Assembly (NCBI RefSeq): GCF_014212315.1
Contig: NZ_JACKXE010000001.1
Span: 3,100,001 to 3,164,000 of the forward strand
DNA: 64,000 nt
Source of the DNA: Nocardioides luti
Lineage (GTDB): Bacteria > Actinomycetota > Actinomycetes > Propionibacteriales > Nocardioidaceae
Direction of reading: 5' to 3'
The translations under genes and the position numbers were made by a program. The notes beneath the pieces are model-generated. The model was given only the letters and a program-made list of their open reading frames with translations, made no database searches and was not told where the DNA came from. Shown here piece by piece: positions 897 to 16,118 of this stretch (positions within the stretch are counted from its first letter, which is position 1; every line of letters begins with the position of its first letter).

Positions 897-1814
897 TCAC
901 TGGGACAGGCCGACGGCGTTGCCGGTGAGCAGCAGCGCCGCGACCACGATCGCGGTCGCGACCGAGCCGAGGACGAGCAGCTTGGTGGCGCCGGTGCGCA
1001 GCGCGAGCCGCAGCGGCAGGTGCTTCCAGCCGTCGGCGTTGTCGGGGACCAGCCCGGGCAGGGCGCGCAGCACGTGCACGCACACGCCCAGCAGTGCGGC
1101 CAGCACGGTGATGGCGATCTCGGGCGGGTTGCCGGTGGCGTCGCCGCCCCAGCCGCCGTACGACAGGAACGCGGGCAGCAGGGCGAACGACACCGCCCAC
1201 GGCAGCCACGAGAGCAGGCCACGGCGGAGCGCGACGTTGCCGAGCAGGCCGACGACCAGCGAGACGAGGTAGGCGCTGCCGGCGGTGACGCCGTTGGCGA
1301 CGGAGAGGGGGACGACGAGCAGCACGCCCACGATCAGGGCGAACCAGACGGTCCCGGCGTCGAGCTGGCCGAGCGCGACCGGCTTGCCGGCGAGCTCGTG
1401 GCGGCGGTCGCGGGCCGCGTCGACGATGTCGTTGTGCCAGCCGAGGATGGTCTGGCCGACGAGCACGGTGACGAAGACCAGGCCGAGCTCGCGCGTCGTA
1501 CGCCCCGCCAGCGCGGCCGCGGCGGCGACGCCGAGCGCGGTGACGACGGCCTGGCGCGGGTGGCCGGCGCGCAGCAGCAGTACGGGGCCGAGGGTGCCGA
1601 GCGAGAGCCGGCGCCCGGCGCGCCGCTGCGGCTGCACCGGCGCGGTCACGGCGGTGGCGAGCGGCTCGGTCGTGGTCGCGCCCGTGGCGCGGCGAGGGGC
1701 GGGGGCGGTGCCGGACGCGGTGTCCGCGGCAGTCGCCGACGCGGCCGCGGGGGCCGCTCCCACGCCCTCGTCGGGGAGGTCCTTCTTCTTGCGCGCACGC
1801 CGCGTCATCACCAT
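897..1814 (-). CDS. UbiA-family prenyltransferase-like membrane protein
   Basis: About 305 residues: a basic and Ala-rich cytoplasmic N-terminus of about 90 residues, then seven to eight hydrophobic segments. The motif GWHNDIVDAARDRRHELAGK resembles the first Asp-rich motif (NDxxDxxxD) of UbiA prenyltransferases, which join isoprenyl chains to aromatic or sugar acceptors in the membrane. The second Asp-rich motif is weak (DNADGW), so the substrate is uncertain and a SCO3242-like enzyme of unknown acceptor is likely. Starts at 1814 (ATG), 1811 (GTG) and 1808 (ATG) are all possible. It lies upstream of the lipoprotein on the same strand with a 133-base gap and is divergent from carD. Confidence 0.7.
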   Translation of the reverse strand: MVMTRRARKKKDLPDEGVGAAPAAASATAADTASGTAPAPRRATGATTTEPLATAVTAPVQPQRRAGRRLSLGTLGPVLLLRAGHPRQAVVTALGVAAAAALAGRTTRELGLVFVTVLVGQTILGWHNDIVDAARDRRHELAGKPVALGQLDAGTVWFALIVGVLLVVPLSVANGVTAGSAYLVSLVVGLLGNVALRRGLLSWLPWAVSFALLPAFLSYGGWGGDATGNPPEIAITVLAALLGVCVHVLRALPGLVPDNADGWKHLPLRLALRTGATKLLVLGSVATAIVVAALLLTGNAVGLSQ

Positions 1815-1981
1815 GGTCGGCAGTATCCGCCAACGGGCTCCCGCAGGTCGTGATTCGCCCGCTTTGGCGCCCCCGGGTCGCGCGCCGGACACCCGGCCCA
1901 CCATACGAACGGCGATTCTGTCAAGCCCACAATGTGCCTCTGACCTGCGCAAACGTGAACGGGGCCGCTTCCGAGCCGTGT

Positions 1982-1987
1982 TAGAAT
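1982..1987 (+). promoter_or_regulatory. Candidate -10 element of carD
   Basis: TAGAAT matches the actinobacterial -10 pattern TANNNT. It lies 27 bases before the carD ATG, leaving room for a short leader with a purine-rich ribosome binding site (AGGAAGGGG, 1996-2004). No convincing -35 box is visible. Confidence 0.55.
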
Positions 1988-2014
1988 GGTCACCTAGGAA
2001 GGGGTACCTCACAC

Positions 2015-2500
2015 ATGACTTTCACCGTCGGCGAAACGGTTGTTTACCCAAATCACGGGGCCGCGATCATCGAGGACATCGAGACGCGCACCATCAAGGG
2101 GGAGGACCGGGAATACCTCGTCCTTCGGATTGTCGCCCAGCAGGACCTGGTCGTTCGCGTCCCGTCCTGCAACCTCGACCTGGTCGGGGTGCGCGACGTG
2201 GTCGACAAGGAGGGCCTGGACCGTGTGTTCGACGTCCTCCGGGCGGCCCACGTGGAGGAGCCGACCAACTGGTCGCGCCGCTACAAGGCCAACCTCGAGA
2301 AGCTCCACAGCGGCGACGTGCTGAAGGTCGCCGAGGTCGTGCGTGACCTGTGGCGCCGCGAGCGCGACCGCGGGCTCTCGGCCGGTGAGAAGCGGATGCT
2401 GGCCAAGGCGCGCCAGATCCTCGTCTCCGAGCTGGCCCTGGCCGAGCACACCAACGAGGACAAGGCCGAGGCCATCCTCGACGAGGTCCTCGCCTCCTGA
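2015..2500 (+). CDS. carD: CarD-family RNA polymerase-binding transcription regulator
   Basis: A 161-residue protein beginning [19 protein letters not shown], the CarD/TRCF RNA-polymerase-interaction domain (residues 1-60), followed by a helical DNA-binding part. The [14 protein letters not shown] segment and the length match mycobacterial CarD (162 residues). CarD binds the polymerase beta subunit and stabilises open complexes, notably at rRNA promoters. It has a strong ribosome binding site and is followed by a perfect 15-bp hairpin, so it is probably transcribed alone. Confidence 0.95.
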
Positions 2501-2514
2501 TCGACACCGATCTC

Positions 2515-2548
2515 CACGCTGCCCCCGGGTCACCCCGGGGGCAGCGTG
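2515..2548 (+). terminator. Hairpin terminator after carD
   Basis: The arms CACGCTGCCCCCGGG (2515-2529) and CCCGGGGGCAGCGTG (2534-2548) form a perfect 15-bp stem with a TCAC loop, 14 bases after the carD stop codon. There is only a short T run (ATTTCGG) after it, as is usual for terminators in GC-rich actinobacteria. Confidence 0.8.
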
Positions 2549-2579
2549 CATTTCGGGGTCCGCCGCCGCCGGACCGGGC

Positions 2580-2627
2580 GGACGTCATACGGTCTGAGGG
2601 CCATGACCCACGATGCGTATGACGTCC
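2580..2627. repeat. Inverted repeat spanning the start codon of the short IspD-like gene
   Basis: GGACGTCATACG (2580-2591) and CGTATGACGTCC (2616-2627) are perfect 12-bp inverted arms around 24 bases. The start ATG at 2603 lies in the loop, and the right arm is inside codons 5-9. The left arm also contains TACGGT (2588-2593), a possible -10 element. The same arm (GGACGTCATACGG) recurs at 55617-55664 with an unrelated loop, so it belongs to a dispersed repeat family. Confidence 0.7.
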
Positions 2628-3199
2628 CCGAGTCCCCGCCCGCGCTCGGCTCCGTCGTGGAGCAGGACCGCGGGTCGCTGCCGTTCGCCCTGGTCCACGG
2701 CGAGGCGCTGGTCGCCTGCGCGTCCTGGGCGCTGGGCGACGCCGGGGTGCTGGCCGTCGACGTCGGCACCGAGTGGGCCGGTCTGGTCGACGCCGAGGAG
2801 CCGTTCGTGCTGCACGACGCGCTCTGCCCGATGACCCCGGCCTCCTTCATCGCCGCGTGCGTCACGGCCGCCGTCGAGCACGACCGGGTCGTGGTCGGGG
2901 TCCGGCCGGTGACCGACACCGTCAAGCACGTCGGCCCCGACGGCGACGCCGACGGCCCTGTCCTCGTCGGCGCGACCGTCGACCGGTCCACGCTGGCCGC
3001 GGTCGTCTCGCCGATCGTGCTGCCGGCGTCCGTCGTCGCCGCGCTGGACGGCCTGCCGACGCTGGACTTCGCCGACCTGGTCGCCGCCCTGGCCGAGCGG
3101 TTCCCCGTCGAGCTGCTCGGGGCCCCGGCCGAGGCCCGCCGGGTCGGGTCGGCCGACGACGTACGCCTCCTCGAGGCGCTCACCGGCCCTCCCCGCTGA
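2603..3199 (+). CDS. Short, divergent IspD-like protein lacking the nucleotide-binding motif
   Basis: A 198-residue protein that aligns by eye with IspD (MEP cytidylyltransferase) along its length. LHDALCP (70-76) corresponds to the HDAARP loop, PVTDTVK (102-108) to the APVRDTMK segment of E. coli IspD, and TVDRSTL (125-131) to TVDR. The N-terminal GxGxRxG loop, the following lysine, the TPQ motif (here SP at 136-137) and the C-terminal NxK motif are absent or changed, and about 50 residues of the nucleotide domain are missing. It is therefore unlikely to be a cytidylyltransferase alone. It converges on the full-length ispD. The two proteins have lost complementary residues, so a partner role in a mixed dimer is my inference. 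The ATG at 2603 is preceded by GAGGG. Confidence 0.7.
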   Translation: MTHDAYDVPESPPALGSVVEQDRGSLPFALVHGEALVACASWALGDAGVLAVDVGTEWAGLVDAEEPFVLHDALCPMTPASFIAACVTAAVEHDRVVVGVRPVTDTVKHVGPDGDADGPVLVGATVDRSTLAAVVSPIVLPASVVAALDGLPTLDFADLVAALAERFPVELLGAPAEARRVGSADDVRLLEALTGPPR

Positions 3200-3221
3200 C
3201 GCGAGCGGGCGGGCGGGCCGG

Positions 3222-3280
3222 TAGTCCGCCACGTTCTGGTCGCTCCGAGCCCGCCGCAGCGACAGGTTCGTGGCGGACTA
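3222..3280. terminator. Nested inverted repeat between convergent genes
   Basis: TAGTCCGCCACG (3222-3233) pairs with CGTGGCGGACTA (3269-3280). Inside, GTCGCT (3239-3244) pairs with AGCGAC (3258-3263). The right outer arm contains the ispD stop codon. The position between convergent genes suggests a bidirectional terminator. Confidence 0.65.
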
Positions 3281-3982
3281 TCCCGCCGCGGGCCGCCCCG
3301 GGGCGAGACGGGTCGCGAGGGCGACGTCCTCGGGGAAGGTGATCTTCAGGTTGAGCGAGGTGCTCGGCACGGCCGCGATGCGGACGTCGGTGTAGCGCTC
3401 CAGGCAGCCCGCGGTGTCGGTGGCGTCGAAGCCGTCGTGCTCGGCGAGGCGGTACGCCGTCAGCAGGTCGCCCGCGCGGAAGGCCTGCGGCGTCTGGACC
3501 CCCGCGAGGCCGGCGCCGGCGGCGGTCGGAGGAGCGTCGGGGGCGACGACGAGCAGGTGGTCGAGCGGTGCCACCGGGATCGCCCCGCCGTGCTCGCGGG
3601 CGGCGGCGATCGTGGCGGCCCAGAGCGCCTCCCCGGCCAGCGGCCGCGCGCCGTCGTGGATCACGACCACGTCGACGGCGCCGGACTCGATGTCGGGGGT
3701 GAGGGCGCGCAGCGCGTTCCACTCCGAGCGGTGCCGTGTCTCGCCGCCGTCGACGACCAGCACCTCCCGGTTGCCGAGCCACGGCGTGACCGCGTCGGCG
3801 ACGTCGTCGCGCTCGTCGGGCCGGACCACCAGCACCAGCCGGTGCACGTCCGGCTGCGCGAGCGCGTCGCGCAGCGACCACACCAGCACCGGGGCGTCGC
3901 CCAGCGGCAGCAGGACCTTGTTGACGCCGGCCCCCACGCGGGTCCCGGCGCCGGCGGCGAGGATGACGACGGCGGCGGGCAC
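3278..3982 (-). CDS. ispD: 2-C-methyl-D-erythritol 4-phosphate cytidylyltransferase
   Basis: A 234-residue protein with most IspD landmarks: [10 protein letters not shown] (8-17) for CTP phosphates, Lys22, GGETRHRS (79-86), VIHDGARP (107-114), VQTPQAF (162-168), TD at 188-189 and NLKITFPED (211-219). It makes CDP-methylerythritol in the MEP isoprenoid pathway. The arm segment is unusual. Where other IspD proteins carry DT(M/I/V)K and TVDR, this one has PLDHLLVV and GLAGV (139-161), so it lacks the Thr and Arg that bind MEP. The short IspD-like protein facing it keeps them. The start is a GTG at 3982, six bases after a TAGACT hexamer, so the transcript is probably leaderless. Confidence 0.88.
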
Positions 3983-4001: not shown

Positions 4002-4904
4002 TCAGTAGATCGGCTGGTCCGACCGCAGCGACGGGTAGGCCGTCAGCGGGGGCAGGTCGCCGACGCGCTCGTGGTCAGGCCCGGAGCCGGTGCCGTCGGA
4101 GGCCTGCGCGGCGATCGGGTCGCCGTCGGCGTCGAGGTAGGTGATCCGGTCCAGGGCGTTGAAGCCGAGGTTCGAGCCCATCGAGTCGATCGAGGCGCCC
4201 GGGGGCAGGTCCAGGAGACGGTTGAGGACGACGTAGCCGTCCCGCGCCGTGACCGTCGCGTGCGTGCCGTCCCCGAAGTCGTAGCGCACCTGCGCCACCT
4301 CGTCGGGCAGGCGGTCCGTCGTGGAGATCGCCCATGTCGGGCACGACTCGTCGGCCCGCCCGTCGACCAGGCCGCAGCCGCCCCCGAACGAGTAGCTCGT
4401 CGACCGGCTGGTGCCGGAGGCGTCGTACACCGTCATGCCGGAGGAGAACTCCTGGTTGTCCAGGTGCACGAAGCACTCCGCCCAGTGGGCGCCGTCGCCG
4501 GACTCGATCGCCAGGATCACCTGGTGCGCGGTGCGCTCCTGGGCCTTCACGACCGGGGTGCCGGCGTCGAAGATCAGGCCGGTCGCGTCGGCGGACTGGT
4601 TGCCGTCACGGCACTGGCGCAGCAGGGTCGCGTCCGAGCGCGGCGCCTCGGAGGTGCCCTGGCTCGCCACCGGTACGTCGCGCCCGTCGCGGGCCGTGCC
4701 CGGACCGCCGCCGGCCACCGCCTGGACGGAGCCGGCGATCGCGAGGACCGCGACGGCCGCCCCCGCCCCGGTCAGCAGGCGTCGGCGGCGCAGCAGCCGG
4801 CGTCCGGCGCTCACCCCGGGGTCGCCGGCGAACGCCCCGCCGGCGGGCTCGCGGCGTACGGCGTCGTCGAGGAGGTCGTGGAAGTCGGTCGAGTTCATGC
4901 TCAT
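4002..4904 (-). CDS. Single-pass membrane protein, probable partner of the SigE-family sigma factor
   Basis: A 300-residue protein with a cytoplasmic N-terminus of about 42 residues, one transmembrane segment (about 44-65) preceded by RRLLRRRR, and a 235-residue extracytoplasmic domain with several cysteines. Its ATG overlaps the sigma factor stop codon by four bases (ATGA), so the two are translationally coupled. This layout is common for sigma factors and membrane anti-sigma or sensor proteins, but there is no HxxxCxxC zinc anti-sigma motif. An anti-sigma role is inferred from context only. Confidence 0.6.
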   Translation of the reverse strand: MSMNSTDFHDLLDDAVRREPAGGAFAGDPGVSAGRRLLRRRRLLTGAGAAVAVLAIAGSVQAVAGGGPGTARDGRDVPVASQGTSEAPRSDATLLRQCRDGNQSADATGLIFDAGTPVVKAQERTAHQVILAIESGDGAHWAECFVHLDNQEFSSGMTVYDASGTSRSTSYSFGGGCGLVDGRADESCPTWAISTTDRLPDEVAQVRYDFGDGTHATVTARDGYVVLNRLLDLPPGASIDSMGSNLGFNALDRITYLDADGDPIAAQASDGTGSGPDHERVGDLPPLTAYPSLRSDQPIY

Positions 4905-5404
4905 CGTCGGGATCCCTCCGTGGTGTCGGACATCAGCTGGTGGAGCCGCTCGAGGGCTCGTGAGGTGTGGCTCTTGACGGTGCCCTCGGAGATCCGCAGG
5001 TCACGCGCCGTCTCGGTGACGGACATCCCCATCCAGTGCCGCAGCACGACGGTCTTGCGCTGCATCTCCGGCAGCTGCAGCAGGGCCAGCACCAGGTCGT
5101 GCCGGTCGCCCGGGTCGACCCCGGGTGCGGTCGGGTGGTCGTAGCCCTCCAGCCCGGCGCGCTCGCGCCTCCACGGCCGGCGGTGCTCGTCGATCGTGCT
5201 GCGCAGGATCGTCTGGCGCACGTAGGCGTCCTCCGCGGCCGCCCGGCGCACCCGCGGCCACGCGACGTACAGCTTGGCCAGCGCGTTCTGCACGATGTCG
5301 TCGGCGGTGTGCCAGTCGCCGCACAGGGCGTAGGCCATCCGCCGCAGCTGCGGTCGTCTCGCCTGGGCGTAGTCGGTGAACTCCGCCCTCCGGTCGCTGC
5401 TCAT
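4901..5404 (-). CDS. SigE-family RNA polymerase sigma factor
   Basis: A 167-residue group 4 sigma factor. Region 2 (about 10-75) includes LRRMAYALCGDWHTADDIVQ, and region 4 (about 105-160) includes LPEMQRKTVVLRHWMGMSV and ISEGTVKSHTSRALERL, a helix-turn-helix that reads the -35 box. The length is typical of the actinobacterial SigE-like family. The ATG at 5404 is preceded by AGGAGC. It is divergent from the nitrate operon, with 246 bases between start codons, and coupled to a membrane protein downstream. Its target promoter sequence cannot be deduced here. Confidence 0.85.
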   Translation of the reverse strand: MSSDRRAEFTDYAQARRPQLRRMAYALCGDWHTADDIVQNALAKLYVAWPRVRRAAAEDAYVRQTILRSTIDEHRRPWRRERAGLEGYDHPTAPGVDPGDRHDLVLALLQLPEMQRKTVVLRHWMGMSVTETARDLRISEGTVKSHTSRALERLHQLMSDTTEGSRR

Positions 5405-5520
5405 CCGTGCTCCTGTCGGTCCCGAGGTGTCAGTCCCGAGAGAGACGGGGCCTCGCGAGGTTCGGTTGTCACGCGCACGCCCGATTCTCGCCCTCCGGGG
5501 TTTCCAGGGCCGCCGGGTCC

Positions 5521-5553
5521 GTGAGGTCGTGAGGTCTGTGAGGCCGTGAGGAC
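5521..5553. repeat. Four tandem GTGAGG direct repeats in the sigma factor/narK intergenic region
   Basis: GTGAGGTC, GTGAGGTC, TGTGAGGCC and GTGAGGAC follow one another with a period of 8-9 bases, midway between the divergent sigma factor and narK genes. Direct repeats in such a place often bind a regulator. I cannot assign one. Confidence 0.5.
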
Positions 5554-5650
5554 AAGTTGACCTCGGCGAGAGACCGGCGTGCAGCGAGGCGAAACCTCGA
5601 CTGCCGAGAGTGAGGTCGTCAGCCACCACGGAACCCCCCAGGAGCAGCCC

Positions 5651-7129
5651 ATGTCCGCGACCGCCCCCACCGAACGGCGCACCGGCCGCTGGATCGACGA
5701 CTGGCGCCCCGAGGACGCCGCCTTCTGGGAGGGCGGCGGCCGACAGGTCGCGCGCCGCAACCTGGTGTGGTCGATCTTCGCCGAGCACCTCGGCTTCTCG
5801 GTCTGGCTGATCTGGAGCGTCAGCTCGGCGTTCCTGGTCGCGACCGGCTTCGACTACAGCCCCCAACAGCTGTTCCTCCTGGTCGCGCTGCCGAACCTGG
5901 TCGGCTCGCTGCTGCGGCTGCCCTACACCTTCGCCGTCCCGAAGTTCGGCGGCCGCAACTGGACGATGACGAGCGCCGCGCTGCTGCTGGTGCCGACGCT
6001 CGGTTTCGCGTACGCCGTGCAGCGGCCGGACACGCCGTACTGGGCCTTCTGCCTAATCGCGGCCACCGCCGGCCTCGGCGGCGGCAACTTCGCCTCGTCG
6101 ATGGCGAACATCAACTTCTTCTACCCCTCCGCCAAGAAGGGCGCCGCGCTCGGGCTCAACGCCGCGGGCGGCAACCTCGGCGTCTCGCTGATCCAGCTCT
6201 TCCTGCCGGTGATCGTGGGTGGCGCGGGCATCTTCGGCCTGGTCAAGGCCGCCGACGGCGGCGTGCACCTCGAGCGGGCCGCGTGGGTGTACGCCGGCCT
6301 CGCCGTGGTGGCCACGCTGGCGGCGTACCTCTTCATGGACAACCTCGGCACCGCGAAGTCGACGCCCCGCGAGCAGCTGCAGGTCGTCCGGAAGCCGCAG
6401 ACCTGGATCATGGCGTTCCTCTACATCGGAACCTTCGGCTCGTTCATCGGCTACTCCGCGGCGATGCCGCTGCTGATCAAGCTCAACTTCTGGGTGCCGG
6501 ACCCGGCGCCGCTCGGCACCGGCATCTACTTCGCCTACTTCGCCTTCCTCGGCGCGCTGGTCGGCTCCGCGACGCGGCCGCTCGGCGGCTGGCTCGCCGA
6601 CACGTACGGCGGCGCGAAGGTCACCCTCGGCGCCTTCGTCGGCATGGTGGTCTTCACGCTCGTCGTGCTGTGGACGCTGACGCAGCTCACCCCGAACCCG
6701 ACCGCGGACCCGGCGATCGCCACCGAGAACCAGGCGTGGTTCCCCGCGTTCCTCGTCGCCTTCCTCCTCGTCTTCGCCTCGACCGGCATCGGCAACGGCT
6801 CGACCTACAAGATGATCCCCGCGATCTGGCGCACCGAGGCCGAGCGCTCGACGGCTCCCGGCACCCCCGAGCGCGACGCCGCGCTGCTGCGCGGCACCAA
6901 GCAGGCCTCGGCGGCGATCGGCGTCATCGGGGCGGTCGGCGCGATGGGCGGCTTCCTGATCCCGCTGGCCTTCAGCTCGCCGTGGGTCGACAACCCGCTG
7001 TCGGCGACCAAGGGCGCGTTCATGGTCTTCACCGGCTTCTACGTCGTGTGCGCGCTGGTCACCTGGGCGGTCTACCTGCGCCGGCCCGCCACCGCGAAGG
7101 CGACCGGCCTCGCCGGCGCCCGGATCTGA
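5651..7129 (+). CDS. narK: Nitrate/nitrite transporter of the NarK/NasA major facilitator family
   Basis: A 492-residue protein with about 12 membrane segments. It carries the nitrate-porter features FxxNxxFFYP (ANINFFYPSAKKGAALGLNA, near 150-170) and a second glycine-rich signature near 400-425 (STGIGNGSTYKMIP). It imports nitrate and may export nitrite. The ATG at 5651 is preceded by AGGAGCAG. It is the first gene of the nitrate assimilation cluster, and the reductase gene starts seven bases after its stop codon. Confidence 0.92.
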   Translation: MSATAPTERRTGRWIDDWRPEDAAFWEGGGRQVARRNLVWSIFAEHLGFSVWLIWSVSSAFLVATGFDYSPQQLFLLVALPNLVGSLLRLPYTFAVPKFGGRNWTMTSAALLLVPTLGFAYAVQRPDTPYWAFCLIAATAGLGGGNFASSMANINFFYPSAKKGAALGLNAAGGNLGVSLIQLFLPVIVGGAGIFGLVKAADGGVHLERAAWVYAGLAVVATLAAYLFMDNLGTAKSTPREQLQVVRKPQTWIMAFLYIGTFGSFIGYSAAMPLLIKLNFWVPDPAPLGTGIYFAYFAFLGALVGSATRPLGGWLADTYGGAKVTLGAFVGMVVFTLVVLWTLTQLTPNPTADPAIATENQAWFPAFLVAFLLVFASTGIGNGSTYKMIPAIWRTEAERSTAPGTPERDAALLRGTKQASAAIGVIGAVGAMGGFLIPLAFSSPWVDNPLSATKGAFMVFTGFYVVCALVTWAVYLRRPATAKATGLAGARI

Positions 7130-7136
7130 CCTCGCC

Positions 7137-9230
7137 ATGACCGACACCCACTGCCCCTACTGCTCCCTGCAGTGCGGGATGAAGGTGACCGGGCGGCGGT
7201 CGCCGGAGGTGTCGGCCTGGCCGGAGTTCCCCGTCAACGAGGGCGCGTTGTGCCGCAAGGGCTGGACGGCGACCGGGCTCGTCGGCAGCCGCGAGCGGCT
7301 CACGACCCCGCTGCTGCGGGACCGGGCGACCGGGGAGTTCCGCCCGGTCGGCTGGGACGAGGCGCTCGGCGTCGTCGCCGACCGGCTCCGTGCGCTGCGC
7401 GCCGCGCACGGGCCCGACACGGTCGGCGTCTTCGGCGGCGGCGGGCTGACGAACGAGAAGGCCTACCAGCTCGGCAAGTTCGCCCGGGTCGCGCTCGGCA
7501 CCAGCCAGATCGACTACAACGGCCGCTGGTGCATGAGCTCGGCCGCGTCGGCCGGGACGAAGGCGTTCGGCCTGGACCGCGGGCTGCCGTTCCCGCTCGC
7601 GGACCTCGAGCAGACCGACGTCGTCGTGCTGGTCGGCTCCAACCTCGCCGAGACGATGCCCCCCGCGGCCCGCCACCTCGACCGGCTGCGCGAGCGCGGC
7701 GGCCGAGTCGTCGTCGTCGACCCCCGCGTCACGGCGACCGCCGAGCGCGCCGACCTCGTCGTCCAGCCGGTCCCCGGCACGGACCTGGCCCTCGCGCTGG
7801 GCGTCCTGCACCTGCTCGTGGCCGGCGGCCACGTCGACGAGGAGTACGTCGCCACCCGGACGACCGGCTTCGACGACGTCCGCCGCGCCGTCGCGGCGTG
7901 GTGGCCCGAGCGGGTCGAGCGGGTCACCGGCGTGCCGGTCGAGGAGCTCCGCGCCCTGGTCGCGCTGCTCACCGGCGCCGACAAGGTGGTGGTGCTCACC
8001 GCCCGCGGGGCCGAGCAGCACAGCCAGGGCACCGACACCGTGCTCGCCTGGATCGACGTGGCCCTGGCGCTGGGGCAGTGCGGGACGACGTACGGCGGCT
8101 ACGGCTGTCTGACCGGTCAGGGCAACGGCCAGGGTGGCCGCGAGCACGGCCAGAAGGCCGACCAGCTGCCGGGCTACCGGATGATCGACGACCCGGCCGC
8201 GCGCGAGCACGTCGCCGGCGTGTGGGGTGTCCCGGCCGACCAGCTGCCGGGCAGGGGGCGCTCGGCCTACGAGCTCCTCGACGTCCTCGGCACCCCGACC
8301 GGCCCGCAGGCGCTCCTGGTCTTCGGCTCCAACATCGTGGTCTCCGCGCCGAACGCCACCCACGTCACGCGGCGGCTGGAGTCCCTCGACCTCCTGGTCG
8401 TCGCCGACCTCGTGCTGTCCGAGACCGCCGCGATCGCCGACGTCGTCCTGCCGGTCACGCAGTGGGCCGAGGAGACCGGCACCATGACCAACCTCGAGGG
8501 CCGGGTGATCCTGCGCCAGCAGGCGCTGACCCCGCCCACCGGTGTACGCAGCGACCTCGAGGTCCTGCACGGGCTGGCCGTCCGCCTCGAGGCGCCCGTG
8601 CCGTTCGCGACCGATCCCGAGGAGGTCTTCGCCGAGCTCGGCCGGGCCTCGGCGGGCGGCCGGGCGGACTACGCGGGCATCACCTACGACCGGATCCGCG
8701 CCGAGCACGGGGTGTTCTGGCCGTGCCCGGACGCCGACCACCCCGGCACGCCGCGGATGTTCCTCGACGGCTTCGCCACCCCGGACGGTCGGGCCCGCTT
8801 CCACGCGGTCGAGCACCGCGGCGCGGCCGAGCAGCCGTGCGCGGACTACCCGCTGCACCTCACCACCGGGCGGGTGCTCGCGCAGTACCAGTCCGGCGCC
8901 CAGACCCGTCGCGTCCGCGCGCTCACCGACACCGGCCCCTTCGTCGAGCTGCACCCCCTGCTCGCCCGCCGGCTCGGCACCGCCGACGGCGAGCCGGTCA
9001 CGGTCACCACCCGCCGCGGCTCGATGACCGCACCGGCGCGGGTGGTCGCGACGATCCGCCCCGACACCGTCTTCGTCCCCTTCCACTGGGTCGGGGCGAA
9101 CCGGCTCACCAACGACGCCCTCGACCCGTCCAGCCGGATGCCGGAGTTCAAGGTGTGCGCGGCGTCGGTGATGGCGGCGGGCCGCGCGTCCGGTGCGACC
9201 CGCGAGCAGCCGGCGGGGGTGCCGGCATGA
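7137..9230 (+). CDS. Assimilatory nitrate reductase catalytic subunit (molybdopterin, [4Fe-4S])
   Basis: A 697-residue member of the molybdopterin oxidoreductase family, NasA/NarB type. The N-terminal [4Fe-4S] ligands are Cys6, Cys9, Cys13 and Cys39 (HCPYCSLQCG, then LCRKG). The bis-MGD binding regions follow, including GQGNGQGGREHGQK, and a molydop-binding domain closes the protein (LTTGRVLAQYQSGAQTRR). It reduces nitrate to nitrite in the cytoplasm. The family is typically 650-750 residues, so it looks complete. Its stop codon overlaps the ATG of the flavoprotein gene by four bases, which suggests that protein is the electron donor. Confidence 0.92.
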   Translation: MTDTHCPYCSLQCGMKVTGRRSPEVSAWPEFPVNEGALCRKGWTATGLVGSRERLTTPLLRDRATGEFRPVGWDEALGVVADRLRALRAAHGPDTVGVFGGGGLTNEKAYQLGKFARVALGTSQIDYNGRWCMSSAASAGTKAFGLDRGLPFPLADLEQTDVVVLVGSNLAETMPPAARHLDRLRERGGRVVVVDPRVTATAERADLVVQPVPGTDLALALGVLHLLVAGGHVDEEYVATRTTGFDDVRRAVAAWWPERVERVTGVPVEELRALVALLTGADKVVVLTARGAEQHSQGTDTVLAWIDVALALGQCGTTYGGYGCLTGQGNGQGGREHGQKADQLPGYRMIDDPAAREHVAGVWGVPADQLPGRGRSAYELLDVLGTPTGPQALLVFGSNIVVSAPNATHVTRRLESLDLLVVADLVLSETAAIADVVLPVTQWAEETGTMTNLEGRVILRQQALTPPTGVRSDLEVLHGLAVRLEAPVPFATDPEEVFAELGRASAGGRADYAGITYDRIRAEHGVFWPCPDADHPGTPRMFLDGFATPDGRARFHAVEHRGAAEQPCADYPLHLTTGRVLAQYQSGAQTRRVRALTDTGPFVELHPLLARRLGTADGEPVTVTTRRGSMTAPARVVATIRPDTVFVPFHWVGANRLTNDALDPSSRMPEFKVCAASVMAAGRASGATREQPAGVPA

Positions 9231-10600
9231 GCGAGCGCCTGGTCGTCGTCGGCAACGGGATGGCCGCGAACCGGCTGCTCGACGACCTCGCCGTGCGCGG
9301 GTACGACGGGCACGTCACCGTGCTCGGCGACGAGCCCGTGCCGGCGTACAACCGGATCCTGCTGAGCGCCGTCCTCGAGGGCAGCCACCCCCGCGGCGCG
9401 ATCGCGCTGCCGGAGCGCACCCCGGACCGCACCGACCTGCGGCTCGGGACGCGCGTGCTCGAGGTCGACCGGGAGCGCCGCGAGGTGATGCTGGTCGACG
9501 GCGAGCGGATCGGCTACGACCGGCTGGTCCTCGCGACCGGCAGCATCCCCACCCTGCCCCCGATCCGCGGGCTGGTGCGGATGGACGGCCAGCTGCACCC
9601 GAAGGTGCACGCCTTCCGCAGCCTGGCCGACTGCGAGCGGCTCGACGCGGCGATCGCGGGCGACCTGCGGGGCGTCGTCGTCGGCGGCGGCCTGCTCGGC
9701 CTCCAGGTCGCGCGGGTGCTGACCCTGCGCGGGGTCGCGACCGAGGTCGTCGAGGGCGCCGAGCACCTGCTCGCCAGCCAGGTCGGCACGCCCGGCGGGA
9801 AGGTCCTCGCCCGCGACCTGCGCCGGCTCGGGACCGCCGTCTACACCGGCACCCGCGCGGTCCGGCTCACCGACGCGGGGCTCGTCCTCGACAACGACTA
9901 CACCCTCGAGACCGACCTCGTCGTGCTCACCGCCGGCGGCCGGCCGAGCACCGCGCTCGCCCGGCGCGCCGGACTGATGGTGCGGCGGGGCGTCGTCGTG
10001 GACGGCCGCCTCGCCTCGGTCACCGACGACCGGGTCCACGCGATCGGTGACTGCGCCGAGCACCGCGGCGTCACCACCGGCTTCGTCCCGCCGGCCTGGG
10101 AGCAGGCCACGGCACTGGCCGACCAGCTGACCGGCGGCACCACGGCGTACGCCGGCTCCCGCACCGTCGCCCGCCTCCGCGCCACCGGCCTCGAGGTCGC
10201 CGTGCTCGGCGACCCGGAGCGCGCCGACGGCGAGGTCGTCGAGATGACGAACCCGCTGGCCGGGACCTACCGCAAGCTCGTCGTCCGCGACGGCGCGATC
10301 GTGGCCGCGGCCCTGGTCGGCGACCTGTCCCGGATCGGCCTGATCACCCAGCTCTACGACCGCCGCACCGTCCTCGGCCCGCTCGAGCCCGGCGAGCTGC
10401 TCGTGCCCGAGTCGGCCGCGGCGCCCGCGCCGCTCACCGACGAGGTCGAGGTGTGCGCCTGCGCCGGGGTCAGCGCCGGGCGGGTCCGGGCCTGCGCGGA
10501 CCTCGACGACGTACGCCGCACCACCCGCGCCACCACCGGCTGCGGCGGGTGCGGACCGGTCGTCCGCCAGCTGCTCGGTGCCGCCCCGGCCCCGGTCTGA
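9227..10600 (+). CDS. FAD-dependent NAD(P)H oxidoreductase with BFD-type [2Fe-2S] domain, probable nitrate reductase electron-transfer subunit
   Basis: A 457-residue protein. Residues 1-310 form a pyridine nucleotide-disulfide oxidoreductase fold with two dinucleotide loops (VVVGNGMAANRLL at 4-16 and VVVGGGLLGLQVAR near 145-158) and the FAD motif VHAIGDCAEH. Residues 310-390 resemble the NirB linker. The C-terminal BFD-like [2Fe-2S] domain has CxC near 408 and CGGC near 438. It resembles the N-terminal half of NirB and the NasB subunit. Translational coupling to the nitrate reductase suggests it passes electrons from NAD(P)H to that enzyme. Confidence 0.82.
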   Translation: MSERLVVVGNGMAANRLLDDLAVRGYDGHVTVLGDEPVPAYNRILLSAVLEGSHPRGAIALPERTPDRTDLRLGTRVLEVDRERREVMLVDGERIGYDRLVLATGSIPTLPPIRGLVRMDGQLHPKVHAFRSLADCERLDAAIAGDLRGVVVGGGLLGLQVARVLTLRGVATEVVEGAEHLLASQVGTPGGKVLARDLRRLGTAVYTGTRAVRLTDAGLVLDNDYTLETDLVVLTAGGRPSTALARRAGLMVRRGVVVDGRLASVTDDRVHAIGDCAEHRGVTTGFVPPAWEQATALADQLTGGTTAYAGSRTVARLRATGLEVAVLGDPERADGEVVEMTNPLAGTYRKLVVRDGAIVAAALVGDLSRIGLITQLYDRRTVLGPLEPGELLVPESAAAPAPLTDEVEVCACAGVSAGRVRACADLDDVRRTTRATTGCGGCGPVVRQLLGAAPAPV

Positions 10601-15614: not shown

Positions 15615-16118
15615 TCAGGCCGGCGCGACCACCAGCGCCGTCGCGATGGCCGCGACTCCCTCACCGCGGCCGGTCAGACCCAGTCCGTCGGTGGTCGTCG
15701 CGGAGACGGTGACGGGGGCGCCGACGGCGGCGGAGAGGGCGGCCTCGGCCTCGGCCCGGCGGGGCCCGACCTTCGGGCGGTTGCCGATCACCTGGACGGC
15801 CACGTTGCCGATCTCGAAGCCCGCGGCGCGGAGCCGGCGGGCGGTCTCGCCGAGCAGGGCGGCGCCGGACGCACCGGCCCACTCCGGCTCCGACGTACCG
15901 AAGTTCGACCCCAGGTCGCCCAGCCCGGCCGCCGACAGCAGCGCGTCGCAGGCGGCGTGCGCGGCGACGTCCGCGTCGGAGTGTCCCTCGAGTCCTCGGG
16001 GCTCGTCCGGCCAGGAGAGCCCGGCCAGGAAGAGCGGGACGCCGTCGACGAGGCGGTGGACGTCGGTGCCGACGCCGATCCTCGTTCTGTAAGGACTTGG
16101 GTGCACAGCCGTGATCAT
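15615..16118 (-). CDS. ispF: 2-C-methyl-D-erythritol 2,4-cyclodiphosphate synthase
   Basis: A 167-residue IspF with the zinc site GTDVHRL near the N-terminus, [20 protein letters not shown] in the middle and [14 protein letters not shown] near the C-terminus. It cyclises CDP-methylerythritol 2-phosphate in the MEP pathway. The ATG at 16118 gives the usual length. It lies 11.6 kb from ispD, whereas the two are usually adjacent. Its start codon is only 20 bases from the divergent start of the next gene. Confidence 0.95.

Follow-up and report, generated by a model that had tools for sequence, protein, structure and literature searches.

Why two IspD-like genes lie next to each other, each without motifs that the other retains, is the question raised by the 64,000-nt stretch of a 4.5-Mb genome analyzed here (the window). 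The subunits of an ordinary IspD homodimer both perform catalysis and arm donation for one another; it is in this homodimeric form that IspD is known, and it is studied as a target of antibiotics and herbicides. The third enzyme of isoprenoid synthesis appears to be split over two neighbouring genes in Nocardioides and close relatives. Judging from the comparison of sequences described below, we consider it highly probable that the long and the short protein together form a MEP cytidylyltransferase that is an obligate heteromer, with the arm donated in trans by the short chain.

The locus starts with the gene of a CarD-family regulator (positions 2015-2500, forward strand; PF21095 and PF02559 above cut-off), which lies directly upstream of the short gene and marks the ancestral carD-ispD neighbourhood. 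The short IspD-like gene (2603-3199, forward strand, ATG start) encodes the proposed arm-donating subunit of 198 amino acids. It is followed, with 78 bp between the reading frames, by the convergent long ispD gene (3278-3982, reverse strand, GTG start), encoding the proposed catalytic subunit of 234 amino acids, which has lost its arm. Both positions and the convergent orientation agree with the original prediction. The ispF gene, whose product acts further on in the MEP pathway, is found within the window at 15615-16115 on the reverse strand (frame end 15615, start not fixed; PF02542 178.9 bits at G000:C1:3115630-3116082).

The motifs ascribed to the two proteins by the original prediction were all recovered. 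The long protein keeps the AAGAGTRVG loop, K22, HDGARP, TPQAF and NLK, and its arm motifs are replaced by PLDHLLVV and GLAGV. The short protein keeps HDA, RPVTDTVK (residues 101-108, positions 2903-2926, forward strand) and TVDR (residues 125-128, positions 2975-2986, forward strand), and is devoid of the CTP loop, TPQ and NxK; the HD of its HDAAR is retained and the arginine is lost (R109 in 0 of 150 distinct short proteins, Cys in 149). Both are members of the Pfam family PF01128 (146.4 bits for the long and 31.8 for the short protein, cut-off 27), and the curated threshold for IspD in NCBIfam, that of TIGR00453 (181.3 bits), is reached by neither chain on its own (149.1 and 28.4 bits, respectively). 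The score of the long protein with the ribitol-5-phosphate cytidylyltransferase (TarI) model NF001183, 73.6 bits, is below the cut-off of 166.

Conservation of individual residues was followed in the numbering of E. coli IspD (L252), whose R20, K27, D106, R109, T140, R157, T165 and K213 we take to have roles in MEP binding and catalysis. The counts cover 151 distinct long and 150 distinct short proteins, after removal of near-identical sequences (4-mer Jaccard at least 0.95) and of short proteins that score below 90 bits or span 120 model positions or fewer, including the donors of G077, G096 and G066. Published work on the B. subtilis enzyme describes the CTP triphosphate as being held by Arg15, Lys22 and Lys209 (PMC5099578); other papers describe the beta-arm as making the dimer, whose interface forms the active site (PMC11796317), and the MEP site as contained in the arm (PMC11770629). 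The division of these residues between the long and short proteins is almost absolute, and complementary. R20, K27, R85, H105, D106, R109 and T165 are present in all 151 long proteins and K213 in 149, whereas on the catalytic side the short proteins have R20, K27, R109 and K213 in none of 150 cases and T165 in two. Conversely, the arm residues D139, T140 and R157 occur in 150 of 150 short proteins, D156 in 149 and K142 in 148, against three long proteins with D139, one with T140 and none with K142 or R157. The arm motif D[TS]x[KR] is found in 149 of the 150 short proteins and in 0 of the 151 long ones, whose arm span falls short by about six residues (median 19 versus 25). In the long protein of the window, the corresponding degenerate region comprises residues 140-159 (3506-3565, reverse strand). 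Both sets are kept by 21 single-chain relatives from the family sample, with R20, K27, R109, T165 and K213 in all 21, Thr or Ser at position 140 in 21, and at position 157 Arg in 20 and Lys in one. The donors left out of the counts also have arms, namely DTVK and TVDR in G077, DTLK and TVDR in G066, and DTVT and VDR in G096; in the last of these, the first search ran into an internal stop codon, and the short profile is matched from position 65 only.

Structural models of the two proteins, predicted separately as single chains, are in agreement with this division. The AlphaFold2 model of the short protein (pLDDT 93.1) is folded like IspD, and its arm is formed by strands 108-112 and 120-125; its best matches are mycobacterial IspDs, headed in PDB by 3okr_D of M. 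tuberculosis (Z 17.9 over 170 residues, rmsd 2.5). The model of the long protein (pLDDT 92.9) matches IspD and TarI across nearly its full length, with IspD 1vpa_A as the best PDB match (Z 29.0, 216 residues, rmsd 2.1), and its residues 140-159 form a coil without strand at the place where IspD has the beta-arm.

Distribution of the two genes was examined in nested samples of genomes. In the genus sample, the long gene is present in 58 of 59 genomes and the short gene in all 58 of these, 57 times in the stretch around the long gene and once, in G014, about 2.5 kb away; such recurrence rules out chance or a sequencing artefact. The 59th genome, G003, has neither gene; it does contain an IspD-SDR fusion, along with a partial match of the GlmU type. 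G150 of the family sample, also a member of the genus, lacks both the long and the short gene and has instead a stand-alone relative of the IspD domain of the fusion. In the family sample, the long gene (called at more than 240 bits with profile A2, followed by matches of 144 bits at most) is found in 60 of 120 genomes, each with a short gene; 21 of these 60 are members of the genus, so that the two samples overlap. The expectation that an arm-less IspD is always accompanied by the short gene thus held without exception in the 58 genus and 60 family genomes bearing the long gene. In the fragmented genome G172 of the family sample, the short gene is present and no long gene was found, the stretch with the short gene ending about 240 bp past it. 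The 80 named loci matching the short profile bear in nearly all cases the label Nocardioides, and in a few that of Marmoricola, Pimelobacter or an unclassified MAG. Outside the family, the profile gave weak matches only (E up to 1e-12, at most 65 bits), in 6 of 147 order-sample and 25 of 396 phylum-sample genomes, with the best 22 and the best 8 candidates per genome scored, respectively; the sole match inspected among them, L281, is a canonical IspD interrupted by a contig end. Within the sampled genomes, the split is a feature of one family.

Counted by loci, several of which share genomes, the long gene (above 240 bits) and the short gene (above 90 bits) were each found 186 times and together 181 times, and 180 of the 181 two-gene loci are convergent, L058 having both genes on the same strand. 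Ten loci with one gene only were examined as apparent exceptions. The long gene is present at L126 and L165, where the match is in pieces, and at L140, where it lies in two frames; it is located about 1.7 kb off at L087 (L211), and at L055 the short gene is about 2.5 kb from the long one (L259). L206 and L207 lie on separate contigs of a single genome, and the short proteins of L193, L196 and L201 fall below the 90-bit or the length cut.

Both genes are under purifying selection, with a median dN/dS of 0.224 for the long and 0.249 for the short gene in 65 pairs of related loci, the pairs being non-independent; the closeness of the two values indicates that the short gene is not drifting. The short proteins fall into subtypes A and B and the long proteins into subtypes I and II, and among 144 loci there are 134 A-I, 10 B-II and 0 mixed combinations. 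Distances between long proteins correlate with those between short proteins at 0.805, and at 0.76 after correction for CarD (140 loci), which, changing slowly, is a weak control for species divergence. The analysis of covariation between the two proteins (144 pairs, Neff 102; MI with APC) yielded no contact-like signal, and chain ends made up most of the top pairs.

The arm itself can be traced through rearrangements of the short gene. Five B-type loci, out of ten, still have the older short-A gene, from which the arm (approximately model positions 101-125) is excised in frame, and it is short-B that bears the arm there. These arm-less copies are located at L043 3289-3867, L210 3312-3854 and L200 3373-3909 on the reverse strand, L167 2749-3519 on the forward strand, and G040:C14:112620-113144 on the reverse strand (G040 goes with L038); they stand outside the residue counts, where one best short protein per locus was kept, or have too small a span. 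No short-A gene was seen within the fetched stretch at the other five B-type loci. In G077, the donor (L196 1463-1744, forward strand) is reduced to 93 amino acids, nearly the arm only, encoded between carD and the long ispD gene, and still scores 31.6 bits with PF01128.

The genomic context of the pair is that of the MEP pathway. The pathway enzymes searched, Dxr and IspF, are both present in the source genome, and each occurs in 58 of the 59 genus genomes, the exception being G048, which is 85% complete; HMG-CoA synthase was found in 0 of the 59. Another complete IspD in this genome had been named by the original prediction as an observation that would speak against it, and a second intact PF01128 protein does exist there, a 475-aa IspD-SDR fusion (L001, G000:C1:1846894-1850559; 1462-2889, forward strand). 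The objection does not extend to most of the genus: in 41 of the 59 genomes the long protein is the only full-length PF01128 protein among the matches listed (E to about 4e-7), besides GlmU-type partial matches, and a second full-length protein of the fusion type is present in 18, the source genome included. The fusion type was recognised by its long open frame, and the SDR domain was checked with Pfam in two cases. Therefore, the pair need not be essential in the source genome and should be the MEP cytidylyltransferase in the 41 genomes.

The IspD domain of the fusion scores 175.8 bits with TIGR00453 (cut-off 181.3) and 148.1 with the ribitol-5-phosphate model (cut-off 166). Fusions form a separate clade, and all 7 of those in the tree set carry T140 and R157 together with the catalytic residues on a single chain. 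For six sister-genus genomes (G078, G104, G093, G103, G070 and G065), the matches listed for the long profile (to E 1.9e-9) consist of the fusion alone; these genomes have IspF, and a search for HMG-CoA synthase found none. G003 resembles them. In such genomes the fusion may be the working IspD, and since some IspF-bearing sister genera list it alone as a full-length match, another protein apparently can serve as IspD within the family. In the source genome, it is possible that the fusion is a back-up or has another job. A further IspD-like group, with the motifs PESMRR and SQTPHG (L221, L223, L229), was observed in G086, and adjoins the pair in G089 and G130.

The competing explanation put forward together with the original prediction was a degenerate, inactive paralogue. 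In this reading the short protein is a decaying IspD, and the long protein would act without it, either monomeric or as a homodimer devoid of arms. Loss of the whole CTP loop and of the catalytic lysines, as well as a PF01128 score barely above the cut-off (31.8 versus 27), speaks for it; however, the arm residues are invariant in 150 of 150 distinct short proteins, and the gene is under purifying selection close to that of its neighbour (0.249 versus 0.224). Moreover, it accompanies the long gene in all 58 genus genomes that bear the latter and is missing jointly with it from G003 and G150, and decay would not have spared precisely the motif that the long protein has lost, so that we consider this explanation very improbable. 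Pseudoenzyme partners commonly regulate, and the short protein might instead be an inhibitor or a sensor acting on the long one and not a donor of catalytic residues. Such a role would be compatible with the IspD-like core that it has beyond the arm and with the persistence of arm-less short-A cores at five loci, but it leaves unexplained both the loss of the arm from the long protein and the 93-aa, nearly arm-only form of G077, and we give it only a slight chance.

A different alternative accepts the heteromer and changes its substrate: the pair would be a cytidylyltransferase for another alcohol phosphate, for instance ribitol-5-phosphate, and the fusion would be the MEP enzyme of the source genome. 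It is in line with the fusion-type protein of 18 of the 59 genus genomes, the source genome among them, and with those IspF-bearing sister genera that show the fusion only among their full-length matches. It is difficult to reconcile with the 41 of 59 genomes where the long protein is the sole full-length PF01128 protein listed, although Dxr and IspF are each present in 58 of 59, with the 67 of 189 loci where ispF is on the strand of the long gene and upstream of it, and with the score of 73.6 bits against a cut-off of 166 in the ribitol-5-phosphate model; another substrate thus seems most unlikely.

The preferred explanation remains a heteromeric IspD, probably acting on MEP. The prediction that one chain supplies catalysis and the other chain the arm is supported by co-occurrence, by the invariant arm and by purifying selection on the short gene. 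Also in favour of the heteromer are the complementary residue loss, the matched subtypes, the excision of the short-A arm where short-B has one, the 93-aa donor of G077, the distribution of the pathway enzymes and the separate models of the two chains. Points against it are the covariation result, the second intact PF01128 protein of the source genome, the fusion as sole full-length match in some IspF-bearing sister genera, the slowly changing species control, the deviating donor of G096 and the persistence of arm-less short-A cores. On such genomic evidence we infer an interface and physical contact of the two proteins, 1:1 stoichiometry, MEP as the substrate and mutual dependence; the long and short proteins probably each work only with the other. 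The long protein would bind CTP and carry the catalytic residues, and the short one, its own nucleotide site lost, would serve as the partner, with its beta-arm (DTVK...TVDR) entering the active site of the long protein, binding MEP and holding the dimer together. One of the two active sites of the homodimer would thereby have been abandoned, each chain retaining what the surviving site needs, and every long-short pair would have one functional active site, with CTP held by the long chain and the MEP site completed by the arm of the short one. It is also likely that the obligate hetero-oligomer arose from a two-chain active site divided between diverged paralogues, that the pairing is partner-specific, that the donor can be reduced to about 93 residues, and that the first donor can retain a core devoid of the arm where a second one (B) exists.

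The proposed enzyme shares with the ordinary IspD homodimer the fold, the CTP-binding and catalytic residues of the long protein, the arm motifs of the short one, the MEP pathway in the same genomes and, in many loci, ispF beside the long gene. It differs in that the residue sets are placed on two genes, neither product reaches the TIGR00453 cut-off by itself, and each pair would have a single active site where the homodimer has two. The IspD-SDR fusion and TarI-like ribitol-5-phosphate cytidylyltransferases have the PF01128 domain and the fold in common with the pair, whereas the fusion has catalytic and arm residues on a single chain and a clade of its own. Catalytic subunits with a degenerate activating paralogue are represented by the trypanosome AdoMetDC/prozyme and by DHDDS/NgBR, where an inactive paralogue is required by the active one, as is proposed here; what sets the present pair apart is that the long protein, the proposed active chain, has in its turn lost just what the short one keeps. 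A literature search, with most subscription journals lying outside it, turned up neither an account of a heteromeric IspD nor one of the Nocardioides IspD. If the proposal is true, it would show a route from a homodimer with shared active sites to an obligate heteromer, and the approximately 150 natural sequence pairs are available for study as a natural test of cis- versus trans-acting residues. Genome annotation, in turn, may score two IspD genes for one enzyme.

The origin of the split was approached through gene order and phylogeny. In 180 of 188 split loci, the short gene follows carD on the same strand and within 400 bp; carD is further away in three of the others, on the other strand in one and missing from the stretch in four. 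Among the 25 single-chain loci without a long gene, 15 have carD directly before ispD on the same strand, 13 of these with ispF on the opposite strand beyond it, and the other ten, largely of the fusion clade, have neither carD nor ispF in the stretch. The short gene thus occupies the ancestral place of ispD. In the split loci where ispF is not upstream of the long gene on its strand, it is absent from the stretch in 84 and otherwise placed in 38. The phylogenetic tree (86 rows, quick method, SH-aLRT support only, drawn with a midpoint root) unites 29 short proteins in one clade (99) and 24 long proteins in another (99), and is compatible either with one duplication giving rise to both genes or with acquisition of the long one. 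Further along the window, as judged by eye from the translations, a sigma-factor-like gene (approximately 4901-5866, reverse strand) and the gene following it (4002-4904, reverse strand) adjoin the long ispD gene, and positions 5579-10600 hold an apparent nitrate assimilation cluster with a transporter, a molybdopterin oxidoreductase and an FAD-dependent reductase.
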